DNA from: Bacteroidota bacterium
GTDB taxonomy: Bacteria; Bacteroidota; Ignavibacteria; Ignavibacteriales; Ignavibacteriaceae
Direction of reading: 5' to 3'
Length of the DNA: 64,000 nt
Assembly (NCBI GenBank): GCA_020161395.1
Contig: JAIUOE010000002.1
Location: forward strand, 372,001 to 436,000
Shown here: positions 33,422 to 38,026 of the stretch, one piece after another
Position numbering within the stretch: the first letter of the stretch is position 1
Layout: each line of letters opens with the position of its first letter
Translations under genes and position numbers: made by a program
Notes under the pieces: generated by a model
Told to the model about the DNA's origin: nothing
Databases searched by the model: none
Seen by the model: only the letters and a program-made list of their open reading frames with translations

Positions 33422-33812
33422 TCTTTGTTAATGAATAAATTCTTTGTTATGTTATTAATAAAATACATATCAAAAAAAAACAAAGTACCATCATAAAATA
33501 GGCAAAAAACAGTGACCTAAAAGTGGGGGAGTTTGTTCAGTTGGTACCACATCACGGTACTCCTTTTGATAAGCCATTTACTGAACACCGGGTCATCCGT
33601 CTAATACTTTCCGGCAAGTTGATGACCATTACTCTTTTTTAATTCTCATTTAAGTTTACAATCCTGTTATTTTTCGCTACTGTTTGTTATCCGTTGGCAG
33701 CGTTACAAGTGGAGTATGAAATCTCTCCCCGTTGGGCACAGGTATAAGTTTTTAATATCATTCAACTCCTCGAAACAGCCCTGAATGATTTTCTCATGTC
33801 GTGTGAATTTTA
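33422..33812. other. Intergenic region between divergent T9SS gene and recQ
   Basis: About 390 bases without a gene. It is AT-rich at both ends. I see a direct repeat GGTAC..GGTAC near 33541-33560 and nothing recognisable as an RNA gene. It should contain the promoter of the minus-strand T9SS gene and part of that of recQ. Confidence 0.5.
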
Positions 33813-33820
33813 TACATTTG
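33813..33820 (+). promoter_or_regulatory. TACATTTG -7 box for recQ, probably leaderless
   Basis: TACATTTG fits the Bacteroidota -7 consensus TAnnTTTG. The next in-frame ATG for recQ is at 33827, only 6 bases downstream, so transcription would begin at or next to the start codon. Confidence 0.5.
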
Positions 33821-33826
33821 CATCTG

Positions 33827-36457
33827 ATGACACCACAAGAAGCATTAAAAAAATATTTCGGCTACAACTCTTTCCGGCAGGGACAACTCGAGATAATCGA
33901 GGCGATCCTGAACAAAGAGAATGTCCTTACGATTCTTCCTACAGGGGGTGGGAAATCGATCTGCTATCAGATTCCGGCGGTTATTTCCAAAGGTTTCTCT
34001 ATCGTTATCTCACCCCTTATCGCCCTCATGAAAGATCAGGTTGACAACCTGAGAAAAGCTGGGATCACAGCCGAATTTATCAACAGCTCACTCGGAGGAT
34101 ATGAGATCGAGAGAATTCTCCGTGATCTGGAACAGGGACTGATAAAGCTGCTCTATGTAGCACCTGAAAGACTCGAAAACACCTCTTTCGCAGAAAAAAT
34201 AAAGGAGTTAAAGCCTTCTTTTGTATTCGTGGATGAAGCACACTGCATAAGCGAGTGGGGACATAATTTCAGACCGGGCTACCTTAAAATTCGTGATTTT
34301 ATCACCTGGACGGGAATAAAAAACATCTCGGCATTTACCGCCACCGCCACGGAAGAGGTTCGCGAAGACATTACCAGACAACTGAACATGCGCGACCCCC
34401 TCATCTTTGTGAGAGGATTCGAGAGAGACAACATTTCTCTTTCCATTCAGGAGGTGAAAGACAAAAAAGCCAAAACAGCGGAATTATTGAGAACTTACGG
34501 AACCCCCGCAATAATATACACAGGCTCACGAAAAAAAGCGGAAGAACTTTCAGAACACCTCACTATGAGGAAGATAGAAAATCTTTTCTATCACGCGGGA
34601 CTCCCGAACGAACAGAGGAAAAAGATACAGGACCACTTCCTTTCGGGACGGGTTAAGGTGATAGTTGCTACCAATGCCTTTGGAATGGGAATCGACAAGG
34701 AGGATGTGCGGCTTGTAATCCATTATAACATGCCCGGCACTATCGAGAGCTACTACCAGGAATTTGGAAGAGCGGGAAGGGACGGCAAGGATTCTTTTGC
34801 AGTAATGCTTTTCGAGAGAGCTGACTTGAAACTGCAGCAGTTTTTTATCGATTCCGCCTTCCCGCGAAAAGACCTTGTCGGAGAGATTTATGATGCCCTC
34901 CTCGATTCGGTTTCAGTGCAACAGGGGGAACTCCCCGAAAAGCTGTTAAAAATTGATTATGACCTGATCAACCTGATCCTCGGTAAAAATATAGCCAGAG
35001 GCACGATACTCGGTGCCCTCTCAATACTCGAGAAGGCAGGTTACCTCGCAGCCATTTCCGACTTCAGGCAGAAACACTTCTTTTCATACATCCTGAACAG
35101 CGAGCAGCTAAAAAAATATACCAAAAACCTCCCCGACAATATTAAAAAGGAGGCAATACTGTATCTGGTGAGGGAATATGGAGCCATCCCTTTCGAAAAA
35201 ACCGTACTTCTCGACATGGATAAAATGTCCCAGGAAATGTCGGTGGGTGAAAATACACTTCGCGAAACCATGTTCGAACTTGATAACAGCGGGATACTCT
35301 CATTCTCCGCTCCCTCTTCAAAAGATACTTTCAAACTGCTCATTCCCCGGATAAAAAGTGCCAAACTTGTTGTTGATTCCAGGTACATGGATCAGAACTA
35401 CAACAACTCTTTCAATAAGCTGAAGCAAATGGAATCTCTCGTTTACCATACAGGCTGCAGATTTGCATTTATACTGAAATATTTTGGGGACAAAAAGGAA
35501 TATAAATGCGGGAAGTGCGACAACTGCATGAAGGAGAGCGAGACCCTCCCCGCGGATGCATACCAGTTTATAAATGAGTCGATACTTCGAACAGTGCATC
35601 TCTTTTCGGACGGCATCAGTCCTGTCCATATTTTTACAATTATTATGGGGAACTCGAAGTCGGAGGGTTATCAGAAACTGCCCGTTTTTGGCATCTGTTC
35701 CGGCTTCAAATACGGACACATCAAACCGGTGTTCAACCAGCTCCTTAATACGGGATATATCTTCGAGAACCGCTCAAAATCGAACAGGATTTTTCTTTCC
35801 AACAAGGGATATGCGGCTCTGGTGGAATTGCGGCTTGTAACCGATGAACAATCAGGCACCCCCACCGATCCCAACACCGATCTCGAACTCTATTTCAAGT
35901 TGAAAGCATTAAGGGAGAGAGCGGGTCTAAAATTCTCACAACCGCCGTATCTTATCTGTAATGATGAGGTGCTGCTGAAGTTCTCCCAAATGAAACCGAA
36001 GACCAAAGAAGAGTTTCTGGAAGTGGGGGGCTCAAACGAGCGGATGTTCAACAAAATCGGCGATGAAATTCTTTCGGTAATAAACAGTATCACGATAAAA
36101 AATGAACAGGGACAAAAGAAAAAACTGAATATACCCGCTTCCCACTTCCCTGTTTGGGAGATGGCGAAAGAAGGGAAAACCCTCGCCGAAATGGCAAGTG
36201 CAAAAAATCAGAGTGAGACGGTAATATCGATGCAACTGGAAGAACTGATTGGAATGGATCCTTCGATAGACCCCGAAAAAATTCTCACTCCACCCAGGTT
36301 CAAAATAATGTATGCAAAATACAAGGAAGGCTTTGTAGAACTTAAGGCTCTTAAAACAAAGCTGGGTGAAGGCTTCTCATACCCCGAGGTGCGAATATTC
36401 CTCGCCCGGTTTAAGCATCGTGAACCAAATTATGGAAAAGGATCGCAGTTGCATTGA
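33827..36457 (+). CDS. recQ: ATP-dependent DNA helicase RecQ (long form)
   Basis: DNA helicase of the RecQ family, 876 residues, longer than the 600-residue E. coli enzyme. Motif I is LPTGGGKSICYQ, motif II VDEAHCISEWGHNFRPGY, motif III FTATAT, and the later helicase motif is YYQEFGRAGRDG. An extra domain of about 150-190 residues lies between the helicase core and the zinc site (CRFAFILKYFGDKKEYKCGKCDNC, near residue 545-568). A winged-helix and an HRDC-like domain follow. The ATG at 33827 fits the first conserved residues (MTPQEALKKYFGYNSFRQGQ) and the promoter just before it; an in-frame ATG at 33785 lies upstream of that promoter. Confidence 0.92.
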   Translation: MTPQEALKKYFGYNSFRQGQLEIIEAILNKENVLTILPTGGGKSICYQIPAVISKGFSIVISPLIALMKDQVDNLRKAGITAEFINSSLGGYEIERILRDLEQGLIKLLYVAPERLENTSFAEKIKELKPSFVFVDEAHCISEWGHNFRPGYLKIRDFITWTGIKNISAFTATATEEVREDITRQLNMRDPLIFVRGFERDNISLSIQEVKDKKAKTAELLRTYGTPAIIYTGSRKKAEELSEHLTMRKIENLFYHAGLPNEQRKKIQDHFLSGRVKVIVATNAFGMGIDKEDVRLVIHYNMPGTIESYYQEFGRAGRDGKDSFAVMLFERADLKLQQFFIDSAFPRKDLVGEIYDALLDSVSVQQGELPEKLLKIDYDLINLILGKNIARGTILGALSILEKAGYLAAISDFRQKHFFSYILNSEQLKKYTKNLPDNIKKEAILYLVREYGAIPFEKTVLLDMDKMSQEMSVGENTLRETMFELDNSGILSFSAPSSKDTFKLLIPRIKSAKLVVDSRYMDQNYNNSFNKLKQMESLVYHTGCRFAFILKYFGDKKEYKCGKCDNCMKESETLPADAYQFINESILRTVHLFSDGISPVHIFTIIMGNSKSEGYQKLPVFGICSGFKYGHIKPVFNQLLNTGYIFENRSKSNRIFLSNKGYAALVELRLVTDEQSGTPTDPNTDLELYFKLKALRERAGLKFSQPPYLICNDEVLLKFSQMKPKTKEEFLEVGGSNERMFNKIGDEILSVINSITIKNEQGQKKKLNIPASHFPVWEMAKEGKTLAEMASAKNQSETVISMQLEELIGMDPSIDPEKILTPPRFKIMYAKYKEGFVELKALKTKLGEGFSYPEVRIFLARFKHREPNYGKGSQLH

Positions 36458-36552: not shown

Positions 36553-36583
36553 TTGCATATGTCAAATATTAGTTTTACATTTG
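36553..36583 (+). promoter_or_regulatory. Promoter for the metK leader
   Basis: TACATTTG (36576-36583) is a TAnnTTTG -7 box, and TTG at 36553-36555, 20 bases upstream, fits the -33 element. The start of transcription would be near 36590, about 270 bases before metK, leaving room for the two leader RNA elements. Confidence 0.6.
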
Positions 36584-36608
36584 AGCATTAGGAAATAAAA
36601 ATTCTGAA

Positions 36609-36657
36609 TGTCGTTTTTATCAAGTTACTTGCTGCGACAAAAAACAAGAGCTAAAGG
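36609..36657 (+). promoter_or_regulatory. SAM-II-like riboswitch aptamer, variant first copy
   Basis: A P1-like stem TGTCG/CGACA (36609-36613 with 36635-36639) closes a U-rich loop. The loop has CTTGC, which can pair with CAAG (36645-36648) downstream to make a pseudoknot; the 3' part ends GCTAAAGG, the conserved SAM-II ending. It differs from the classic loop (TTTTTATC instead of TGATTT), so it may be a variant or decayed. It sits directly before a terminator and upstream of metK. Confidence 0.5.
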
Positions 36658-36661
36658 CTGA

Positions 36662-36682
36662 CCCGCCTTGAGCGGGTTTTTT
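36662..36682 (+). terminator. Intrinsic terminator in the metK leader
   Basis: CCCGC/GCGGG stem with a 5-base loop followed by six Ts. AAGGC at the end of the first aptamer (36654-36658) can instead pair with GCCTT (36665-36669), which would break the terminator. That is the expected layout of a ligand-controlled attenuator in which the ligand favours termination. Confidence 0.75.
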
Positions 36683-36725
36683 GGTTTTAAGAGGTCAGTT
36701 GATAGCTGAACAGGGTTTTGAGGAC

Positions 36726-36775
36726 GGTCGTGATTTGTGCGTATTGCAAGCGACCTTAAATAATTTGCTAAAAAG
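36726..36775 (+). promoter_or_regulatory. SAM-II riboswitch aptamer upstream of metK
   Basis: P1 stem GGTCG/CGACC (36726-36730 with 36751-36755) encloses TGATTTGTGCGTATTGCAAG, and the 3' strand ends in GCTAAAAAG (36767-36775). The combination TGATTT, GTATTGCAAGCG and GCTAAAAAG matches the conserved core of SAM-II riboswitches, whose H-type pseudoknot binds SAM. The gene behind it is metK, the SAM synthetase, as expected. The aptamer ends 87 bases before the start codon, so the output step is not the simple ribosome-site masking known for some SAM-II RNAs. Confidence 0.8.
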
Positions 36776-36862
36776 TACCCCGAGATACACCTCCCCGCTT
36801 TTTTCGCACATAACTAATTCCAAAAATGATTGAATTTTTCAAAAAAAACAAAAGGAATAATT

Positions 36863-38026
36863 ATGTCCAACGAATTTTATTTTACATCCGAGTCAGTTTC
36901 CGAAGGTCACCCCGATAAAGTTGCCGATCAGATATCCGATGCCGTGCTCGATAACTGCCTGGCTCATGACCCGAACTCAAGAGTTGCATGCGAAACACTC
37001 ATCGGGAAAAACCTGGTAGTATTGACAGGTGAAATCACCTCAAGCCACAAACCCGATTACGAAAAAATTGTCAGAGATACACTAAGGAAAATTGGTTACA
37101 GCAAAAATTTCCCCGGAATCGACCCCGATGCCTGCACCGTCATCATCAATATCGTAAAACAGGTCGAAGAGATCAACCAGGGAGTTGACCAGGCTTCAGG
37201 TAACACGGGAGCCGGTGACCAGGGAATAATGTTTGGCTATGCCACAAATGAAACTGATGAATACCTGCCCGTAACTTTGGCCTTGTCGCACAGAATATTA
37301 AAAGAGCTTGCCCGTATCAGACACGCCGGTGAGGTGGATTGGCTCCGTCCCGATGCAAAGTCACAGGTGACTGTACGGTATGAAGACGGCAAACCGGTTG
37401 CGATAAACACAATAGTGGTCTCGACACAGCACTCTGAAAAGATTGCACAGACAGAAATAAGGGATTTCCTGACAAAACGGGTGATTGAAAACGGTAAAAT
37501 TATCCCGCAGGAGCTTTTGAAGGAGGGATACAAATTACATGTGAATCCGACGGGTGCTTTTACAGAAGGTGGTCCCGTCGCGGATGCCGGACTGACAGGA
37601 AGAAAAATAATAGTTGATACCTATGGAGGTGCTGCTCCCCATGGTGGTGGTGCCTTTTCGGGGAAAGACTACACAAAAGTGGACCGCTCGGCGGCGTACA
37701 TCGCCCGTTATGCTGCCAAGAATGTGGTAGCCGCCGGTCTGGCTGACAAGTGCACCATCCAGCTATCTTATGCAATTGGAGTCACCGAACCAATTTCGAT
37801 ACTGATCGATACCCATGGAACGGGAAAAAACGACGAAAATGAAATAAGCGATGCAGTGAAAAAGGTGTTTGATTTCAGTCCAAAAGGGATAATCGAAACA
37901 CTTCGATTGAAAAGACCGGTTTATGCAAAGACGGCTGCTTACGGACATTTTGGAAGAGATGATGAAGATTTTACCTGGGAAAAAACAGATAAGGTTGATC
38001 AACTGAAAAGTCTGCTGAATAAATAA
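36863..38026 (+). CDS. metK: S-adenosylmethionine synthetase
   Basis: Makes SAM from methionine and ATP, 387 residues. Family signatures are SESVSEGHPDKVADQISDAVLD at the N-terminus, the GAGDQGIMFGYA block, and the later GGAAPHGGGAFSGKD phosphate loop. The ATG at 36863 is preceded by AAAGGA; the frame extends upstream through an unlikely TTG. The leader carries two SAM-II-type elements and a terminator, so excess SAM should lower its own synthesis. A strong hairpin follows the stop. Confidence 0.97.
   Translation: MSNEFYFTSESVSEGHPDKVADQISDAVLDNCLAHDPNSRVACETLIGKNLVVLTGEITSSHKPDYEKIVRDTLRKIGYSKNFPGIDPDACTVIINIVKQVEEINQGVDQASGNTGAGDQGIMFGYATNETDEYLPVTLALSHRILKELARIRHAGEVDWLRPDAKSQVTVRYEDGKPVAINTIVVSTQHSEKIAQTEIRDFLTKRVIENGKIIPQELLKEGYKLHVNPTGAFTEGGPVADAGLTGRKIIVDTYGGAAPHGGGAFSGKDYTKVDRSAAYIARYAAKNVVAAGLADKCTIQLSYAIGVTEPISILIDTHGTGKNDENEISDAVKKVFDFSPKGIIETLRLKRPVYAKTAAYGHFGRDDEDFTWEKTDKVDQLKSLLNK

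Follow-up and report, generated by a model that had tools for sequence, protein, structure and literature searches.

Tandem SAM-II Riboswitches Likely Act in Series Upstream of a Second metK Gene in an Ignavibacteriaceae Genome

Introduction

Among the riboswitches that respond to S-adenosylmethionine (SAM), those of the SAM-II class (Rfam SAM_alpha, RF00521) have already been described in tandem, with 44 published examples, some of which carry a terminator at the first copy and control of the ribosome-binding site (RBS) at the second (PMC9481103). SAM-II also occurs in tandem with SAM-V, an element with a SAM-II-like core that acts by covering the RBS (PMC6061858), and in the published pairs SAM-II comes first and SAM-V second (PMC9481103). 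With regard to metK, the SAM synthetase gene, elements of the SAM-SAH, SAM-III, and SAM-Chlorobi classes are known to occur before it (PMC4239095). Here, we analysed a stretch of 64,000 nucleotides (nt), hereafter the window, from a Bacteroidota bacterium of the family Ignavibacteriaceae (GCA_020161395.1, contig JAIUOE010000002.1, positions 372,001–436,000), in which the approximately 400 bases between recQ (33785–36457) and the ATG of a metK gene (36863) hold two short pseudoknot-type elements, E1 and E2. Coordinates are those of the window, and all the features described in this leader lie on the forward (+) strand.

Our analysis makes it quite likely that E1 and E2 are two SAM-II riboswitches in series, with a terminator switch at E1 followed by a second check at E2, placed before a second metK gene of the genome (metK2). 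The locus resembles the published tandem SAM-II leaders in having two aptamers, the first of them with a terminator (as judged here from sequence and folding), but it differs from them in that E2 has neither a terminator nor a clearly overlapping RBS, and in that the target is a second metK. With the marine SAM-II/SAM-V pairs it shares a first switch predicted to be transcriptional and a second one downstream in the same leader, although the second element here is a SAM-II and lies away from the RBS. Feedback of SAM on metK is common to the SAM-SAH, SAM-III, and SAM-Chlorobi elements too, but these are different RNA classes, and none of them was matched here. A literature search found no paper describing SAM-II before metK in Ignavibacteria, most subscription papers being outside its coverage.

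Identification of the Two Aptamers

The downstream element, E2 (36726–36778), is a canonical SAM-II aptamer, as the preliminary description of this DNA had proposed from its core motifs. It matched RF00521 with 45.8 bits (gathering score 36, E-value 4.1e-07 over the window), and all the parts of the class were found in it: P1 (GGUCG/CGACC, 36726–36730/36751–36755), L1 (GAUUUG, with the GAUUU motif), and the pseudoknot made of P2a (GUGC/GUAC, 36737–36740/36775–36778) and P2b (UUGC/GCUAAA, 36744–36747/36767–36772), with the invariant UUGC and GCUAAA. E2 thus resembles SAM-II in all the respects tested. A lineage-specific covariance model (R1), trained on 70 of the SAM-II copies that a class-wide scan with RF00521 had detected in relatives, gave 52.4 bits for E2, a score that it obtains by construction, as E2 was among those 70 training sequences; because of this, its identity rests on Rfam.

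The upstream element, E1 (36609–36659), gave no match to any SAM family of Rfam even at E ≤ 10 and remained below the curated score of RF00521, so the Rfam search proposed earlier for both elements succeeded for E2 only. However, the R1 model, from whose training set E1 was excluded, detected it with 28.8 bits (E-values of 2.1e-5 over the window and 0.0013 over the whole genome). These E-values are rough, and the stronger point is the gap in bits, as the next-best place in the 4.07-Mb genome scored 15.0 bits, leaving E1 as the sole credible match besides E2. That E1 could be a chance resemblance within an AT-rich intergenic region, as its position under every Rfam threshold might suggest, is extremely unlikely in view of this gap, and also because E1 occupies the position of the first copy in related tandems, has a terminator of like design behind it, and shows no change in a sister species. 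The resemblance is more than chance, and the sequence places E1 in the SAM-II family, although most other copies scored between 44 and 66 bits with R1. The presence of two SAM-II-type elements before metK was, therefore, confirmed, for E2 by Rfam and for E1 by the lineage model.

The anatomy of E1 agrees with this assignment. P1 (UGUCG/CGACA, 36609–36613/36635–36639) forms 5–6 pairs and is followed by L1 (UUUUUA, 36614–36619); P2a (AGU/GCU, 36623–36625/36657–36659) forms three pairs in a register with a one-base spacer, like those of two related genomes (G413 and G373); P2b pairs CUUGC (36628–36632) with GCUAAA (36650–36655); and L3 corresponds to AAAAACAAGA (36640–36649). An alternative P2a register with two spacer bases was discarded, as it allowed one pair of four only. 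The CTTGC–CAAG pseudoknot proposed previously for this element was not supported either, since the CUUGC strand pairs with GCUAAA, and CAAG (36645–36648) lies within L3. In the SAM-II structure, the fully conserved pocket comprises U10–U12, U20–C23, and G42–A47, where U11 and U21 recognize the ligand at its sulfonium, U44 at its adenine, and A47 at its amino acid end (PMC3764141). Comparison with this structure showed that 13 out of 13 fully conserved pocket residues are present in E1. In conclusion, E1 is like SAM-II in P1, P2a, P2b, L3, the pocket residues, and a terminator-type platform, and it differs in its L1 (UUUUUA instead of GAUUUA/G) and in falling below Rfam detection.

Other assignments of E1 were examined as well. 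A SAM-V or SAM/SAH riboswitch preceding a SAM-II, similar to the marine pairs, would fit the SAM-II-like core of SAM-V and its known tandems with SAM-II (PMC9481103, PMC6061858), but we regard this as very unlikely: neither RF01826 (SAM-V) nor SAM/SAH was matched even at E ≤ 10; SAM-V covers the RBS, whereas E1 lies around 200 nt upstream of the metK2 start codon and before a terminator; and the order of the published pairs is the reverse one. The remaining Rfam classes were also unmatched.

A Terminator and an Antiterminator Associated with E1

Immediately downstream of E1, an intrinsic terminator was predicted (36660–36683; GACCCGC CUUGA GCGGGUU followed by a U-tract) with a folding energy of −11.2 kcal/mol and a z-score of −3.0. 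An antiterminator could be recognized at 36650–36673, in which GCUAAAGGC (36650–36658), the 3′ strand of E1 P2, pairs at eight of nine positions with GCCUUGAGC (36665–36673), a segment that spans part of the terminator stem, its loop, and its 3′ arm. Antiterminators of like design were found in relatives with both strands changed (GCUAAACAGC:GCUGUUUGGC, GCUAAAUAGC:GCUAUUUAGC, and GCUAAAAAGGUA:UACUUUUUUAGC). When folding was modelled at growing transcript lengths, the antiterminator reached probabilities of 0.99–1.0 up to position 36675 with a free P2 strand, and with this strand locked, the terminator formed with 0.96–1.0.

According to these data, E1 most probably functions as a transcriptional SAM-OFF switch and is not a decayed copy. 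RNA polymerase would make E1 first; without SAM, GCUAAAGGC would bind its partner GCCUUGAGC within the terminator, so that elongation would continue, and bound SAM would keep GCUAAAGGC in P2, the pseudoknot helix, so that the terminator would form and end transcription. That SAM, by holding GCUAAAGGC in P2, frees the terminator is proposed by analogy with the known SAM-II structures. Transcripts extending past E1 would then make E2, which would act as a second SAM-dependent check. If true, two switches in series would allow SAM to repress, in a tighter and steeper manner, the accessory synthetase that produces it. The pairing of terminator and antiterminator, its conservation, and the recurrence of the tandem layout in relatives can be read directly from the sequences; what we infer is that both elements bind SAM, that transcription terminates, and how E2 acts.

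Conservation and Covariation

Comparison with a sister species (G076) revealed no change along the 76 positions of E1 and its terminator, compared with 12 out of 148 (8.1%) in the 5′ flank, 24 out of 178 (13%) at the four-fold sites of metK, and 16 out of 135 at those of recQ. At a divergence of 8%, the probability of zero changes in 76 positions is about 0.002, and this argues against the decay of E1, the test being based on this single pair of species.

Decay of the first copy, one of the two options considered in the preliminary description together with a new variant class, would imply that the terminator stays, that the aptamer no longer binds SAM, and that E2 alone regulates. The low R1 score of E1, its absence among Rfam matches, and an L1 change from GA to UU, which out of 84 copies only E1 and the equivalent copy in G076 show, are in line with such a scenario. 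However, E1 retains the 13 pocket residues, P1, P2, and the antiterminator, none of the 76 positions changed between two species whose neutral-like sites differ by 8–13%, and it would be odd for a constitutive terminator before metK2 to be conserved. Consequently, we consider decay rather unlikely, and neither of the two earlier options was favoured by the data.

Covariation was analysed in 63 distinct cores taken from related genomes. E1 is not in this set, from which the four copies with a one-base register (E1, two copies of G413, and that of G373) were excluded together with two others that were badly parsed. Standard pairs in P1, P2a, and P2b occupied 92.4% of the cells, versus 70.6% in shuffled and at most 52.9% in slid alignments, and the covariation score was 0.526, versus 0.138 and at most 0.141, respectively. 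P1 was paired in 99.7% of the cells and P2a in 75.8%, and two-sided changes occurred at each of the five pairs of P1 and at three of the four of P2a. As the register of P1 was picked by pairing and that of P2a was fixed, P2a constitutes the fairer test. P2b is invariant and, hence, uninformative. On a model-fitted alignment (A2), P1 alone gave weaker covariation, owing to slippage of the register in copies whose P1 has 5 bp. The covariation anticipated for related leaders was thus found for P1 and P2a within this set.

Evidence Weighing Against Two Switches in Series

Several observations weigh against a leader with two functional SAM-II switches, and the first of them is the L1 of E1, whose altered sequence had been noticed previously. 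While the 82 other copies have GAUUUA/G-like loops, E1 presents UUUUUA, with UU in place of GA, a change shared only by the corresponding copy of G076 and the sole unusual feature of E1. In SAM-II, G8 makes a triple with C23–G42, which is not among the fully conserved ones (PMC3764141); the equivalent position holds U in E1, and several related copies likewise carry a residue other than G (A, C, or T). Because of this triple, some loss of affinity is possible, and the L1 change may have lowered the affinity of E1 for SAM.

These data also bear on whether E1 could be a variant aptamer that binds SAM less tightly or senses a different ligand, in which case E1 and E2 would respond to different levels or signals. 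The replacement of G8–A9 by UU removes one L1–P2 triple outside the ligand contacts and is fixed in both species, as would be expected from such a variant, but the controlled gene encodes a SAM synthetase, and we find the idea of a variant improbable. In a related and still speculative version, which we hold to be unlikely, the altered L1 would give E1 a SAM threshold or specificity unlike that of E2, making the leader a two-level sensor for a dedicated, SAM-repressed metK2 lineage that exists beside a housekeeping metK lacking this switch.

Regarding the switch at E1, the antiterminator contains one A·G mismatch, and around 5% of shuffled hairpins equalled it in a test carried out on this single copy. 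Moreover, even when the P2 strand was left free, modelled transcripts ending at 36678, or at 36687 and beyond, preferred the terminator, so the predicted switch would need to be kinetic, with the choice made during transcription.

The output of E2 is also less clear. In relatives, a terminator follows the second copy (e.g., CCCCGCUUUUGGCGGGGUUUUUU in G026), but after E2 only the 5′ half of it is left (CCCCGCUUUUUUCGC), and no such terminator was found in the window. At the place where relatives carry antiterminator and terminator (36767–36807), ligand-free E2 is predicted to form an alternative helix between AAAAAG and CUUUUUU (36798–36804). Further downstream, an imperfect hairpin (36808–36866; ACAUAA..AUUCC/GGAAU..UUAUGU) covers the Shine–Dalgarno sequence and the AUG of metK and could have a role in this output, its z-score of −1.45 not being significant alone. 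Folding predicted this hairpin both with E2 engaged and with E2 not engaged, and E2 as an RBS switch found no support in the model, as the modelled accessibility of the Shine–Dalgarno sequence was 0.56 in both states; nor did folding show a clear effect of the ligand at the RBS. E2 has lost its terminator, and it probably acts at the level of translation.

Tandem SAM-II Leaders in the Order

The preliminary description had considered that a pair of such elements before metK could be a new arrangement. This novelty did not hold, given the 44 published tandems (PMC9481103) and the frequency of the layout in the order itself. A class-wide scan with RF00521 detected SAM-II in 62 out of 391 genomes at E ≤ 0.001, 31 of them above the cut-off, with many closely spaced pairs. 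Within the order, R1 matched 19 out of 164 genomes at E ≤ 0.02, and excluding two weak single matches (G165 and G438) left 17 credible genomes, 13 of which carried at least two SAM-II copies in one leader. Hence, the tandem layout is already known, and in this order it is the rule, tandem or triple leaders being the norm. As the Rfam model misses true upstream copies, tandem SAM-II leaders would be under-counted. The genes downstream of SAM-II in the order, named by sequence reading unless a family search was made, included metK, metB/cystathionine gamma-synthase-like and metY-like genes, and small open reading frames (ORFs), and tandem copies before metK were also present in G356 and G389.

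Triple SAM-II leaders were observed in G283, G340, G327, and G240 (loci L075, L076, L081, and L091) and in G413 (L073). In the first four, the L1 of the middle copy (AAGUUA or similar) can pair with its own P2 strand, giving a long hairpin.

A Branch of SAM-II-Controlled Second metK Genes

The gene controlled in the window (36863–38026) is a SAM synthetase gene by family search (TIGR01034 equivalog, 557 bits; Pfam S-AdoMet_synt N/M/C). Both the window genome (G000) and G076 have two metK genes, with riboswitches only before the copy equivalent to that of the window, which is 56% identical to the other metK of its genome (G000:C8). A SAM-II-associated metK together with a housekeeping metK without this switch was also found in G048, G046, G356, and G389; in G048 and G046, the tandem SAM-II is located 1.6 kb upstream of metK2, with two intervening genes in G048. 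A tree of 45 MetK proteins grouped the six SAM-II-controlled copies in one branch (support 100/99), apart from the housekeeping copies, and the branch was recovered with 94/89 in a tree with other rows that included a very divergent MetK from G154. Neither tree is rooted, and long branches occur in them. The MetK of the Ignavibacteriae genome BY39 (L186) grouped with the housekeeping copies, and G416 has two metK genes without any SAM-II match.

Therefore, the SAM-II-controlled metK genes of the order are likely second copies that form a branch of their own, found in six genomes and new here. Of the new results, this association with a second metK lineage is the one of greatest interest, and it raises the question of why one SAM synthetase would be under double SAM feedback and another one without the switch. 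A search with the window MetK among genome contigs yielded best relatives of 49–58% identity, mostly from unrelated phyla, with no close donor or further leader.

Two other metK loci deserve mention. In G154 (L063), a single SAM-II with a terminator precedes the very divergent metK, which lies outside the metK2 branch. In G048 (L225, 120–3069), an apparent operon comprises the tandem SAM-II, a small RQGD/GHxH protein, a DUF6745 protein, and metK2, and the corresponding locus of G046 (L229) begins in the same way.

Other Features and SAM-II Loci

A candidate promoter (TTG..TAGTTT, 36553–36575) was recognized by eye upstream of E1, a scan for E. coli-type promoters being uninformative, and it would place the start of the transcript at about 36580–36590. 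Boxes similar to TAGTTCTTT were present at a similar spacing 5′ of the first aptamer in G002, G025, G026, and G356.

Regarding other genes, a single SAM-II precedes metY-like genes in G009, G057, G053, and G058 (L211, L209, L212, and L090), with another hairpin and U-tract upstream, which in G009 is preceded by a tiny ORF (ATGATGATATGCAGATAA), possibly a leader peptide. In G111, G140, and G091 (L103, L065, and L106), two SAM-II copies per locus are separated by about 0.8–0.9 kb, and the SAM-II sequence GCUAAAAAGGAG runs into the Shine–Dalgarno sequence of genes that do not look related to methionine. Finally, a SAM-II was found before an aspartokinase-like gene in G207 (L097).
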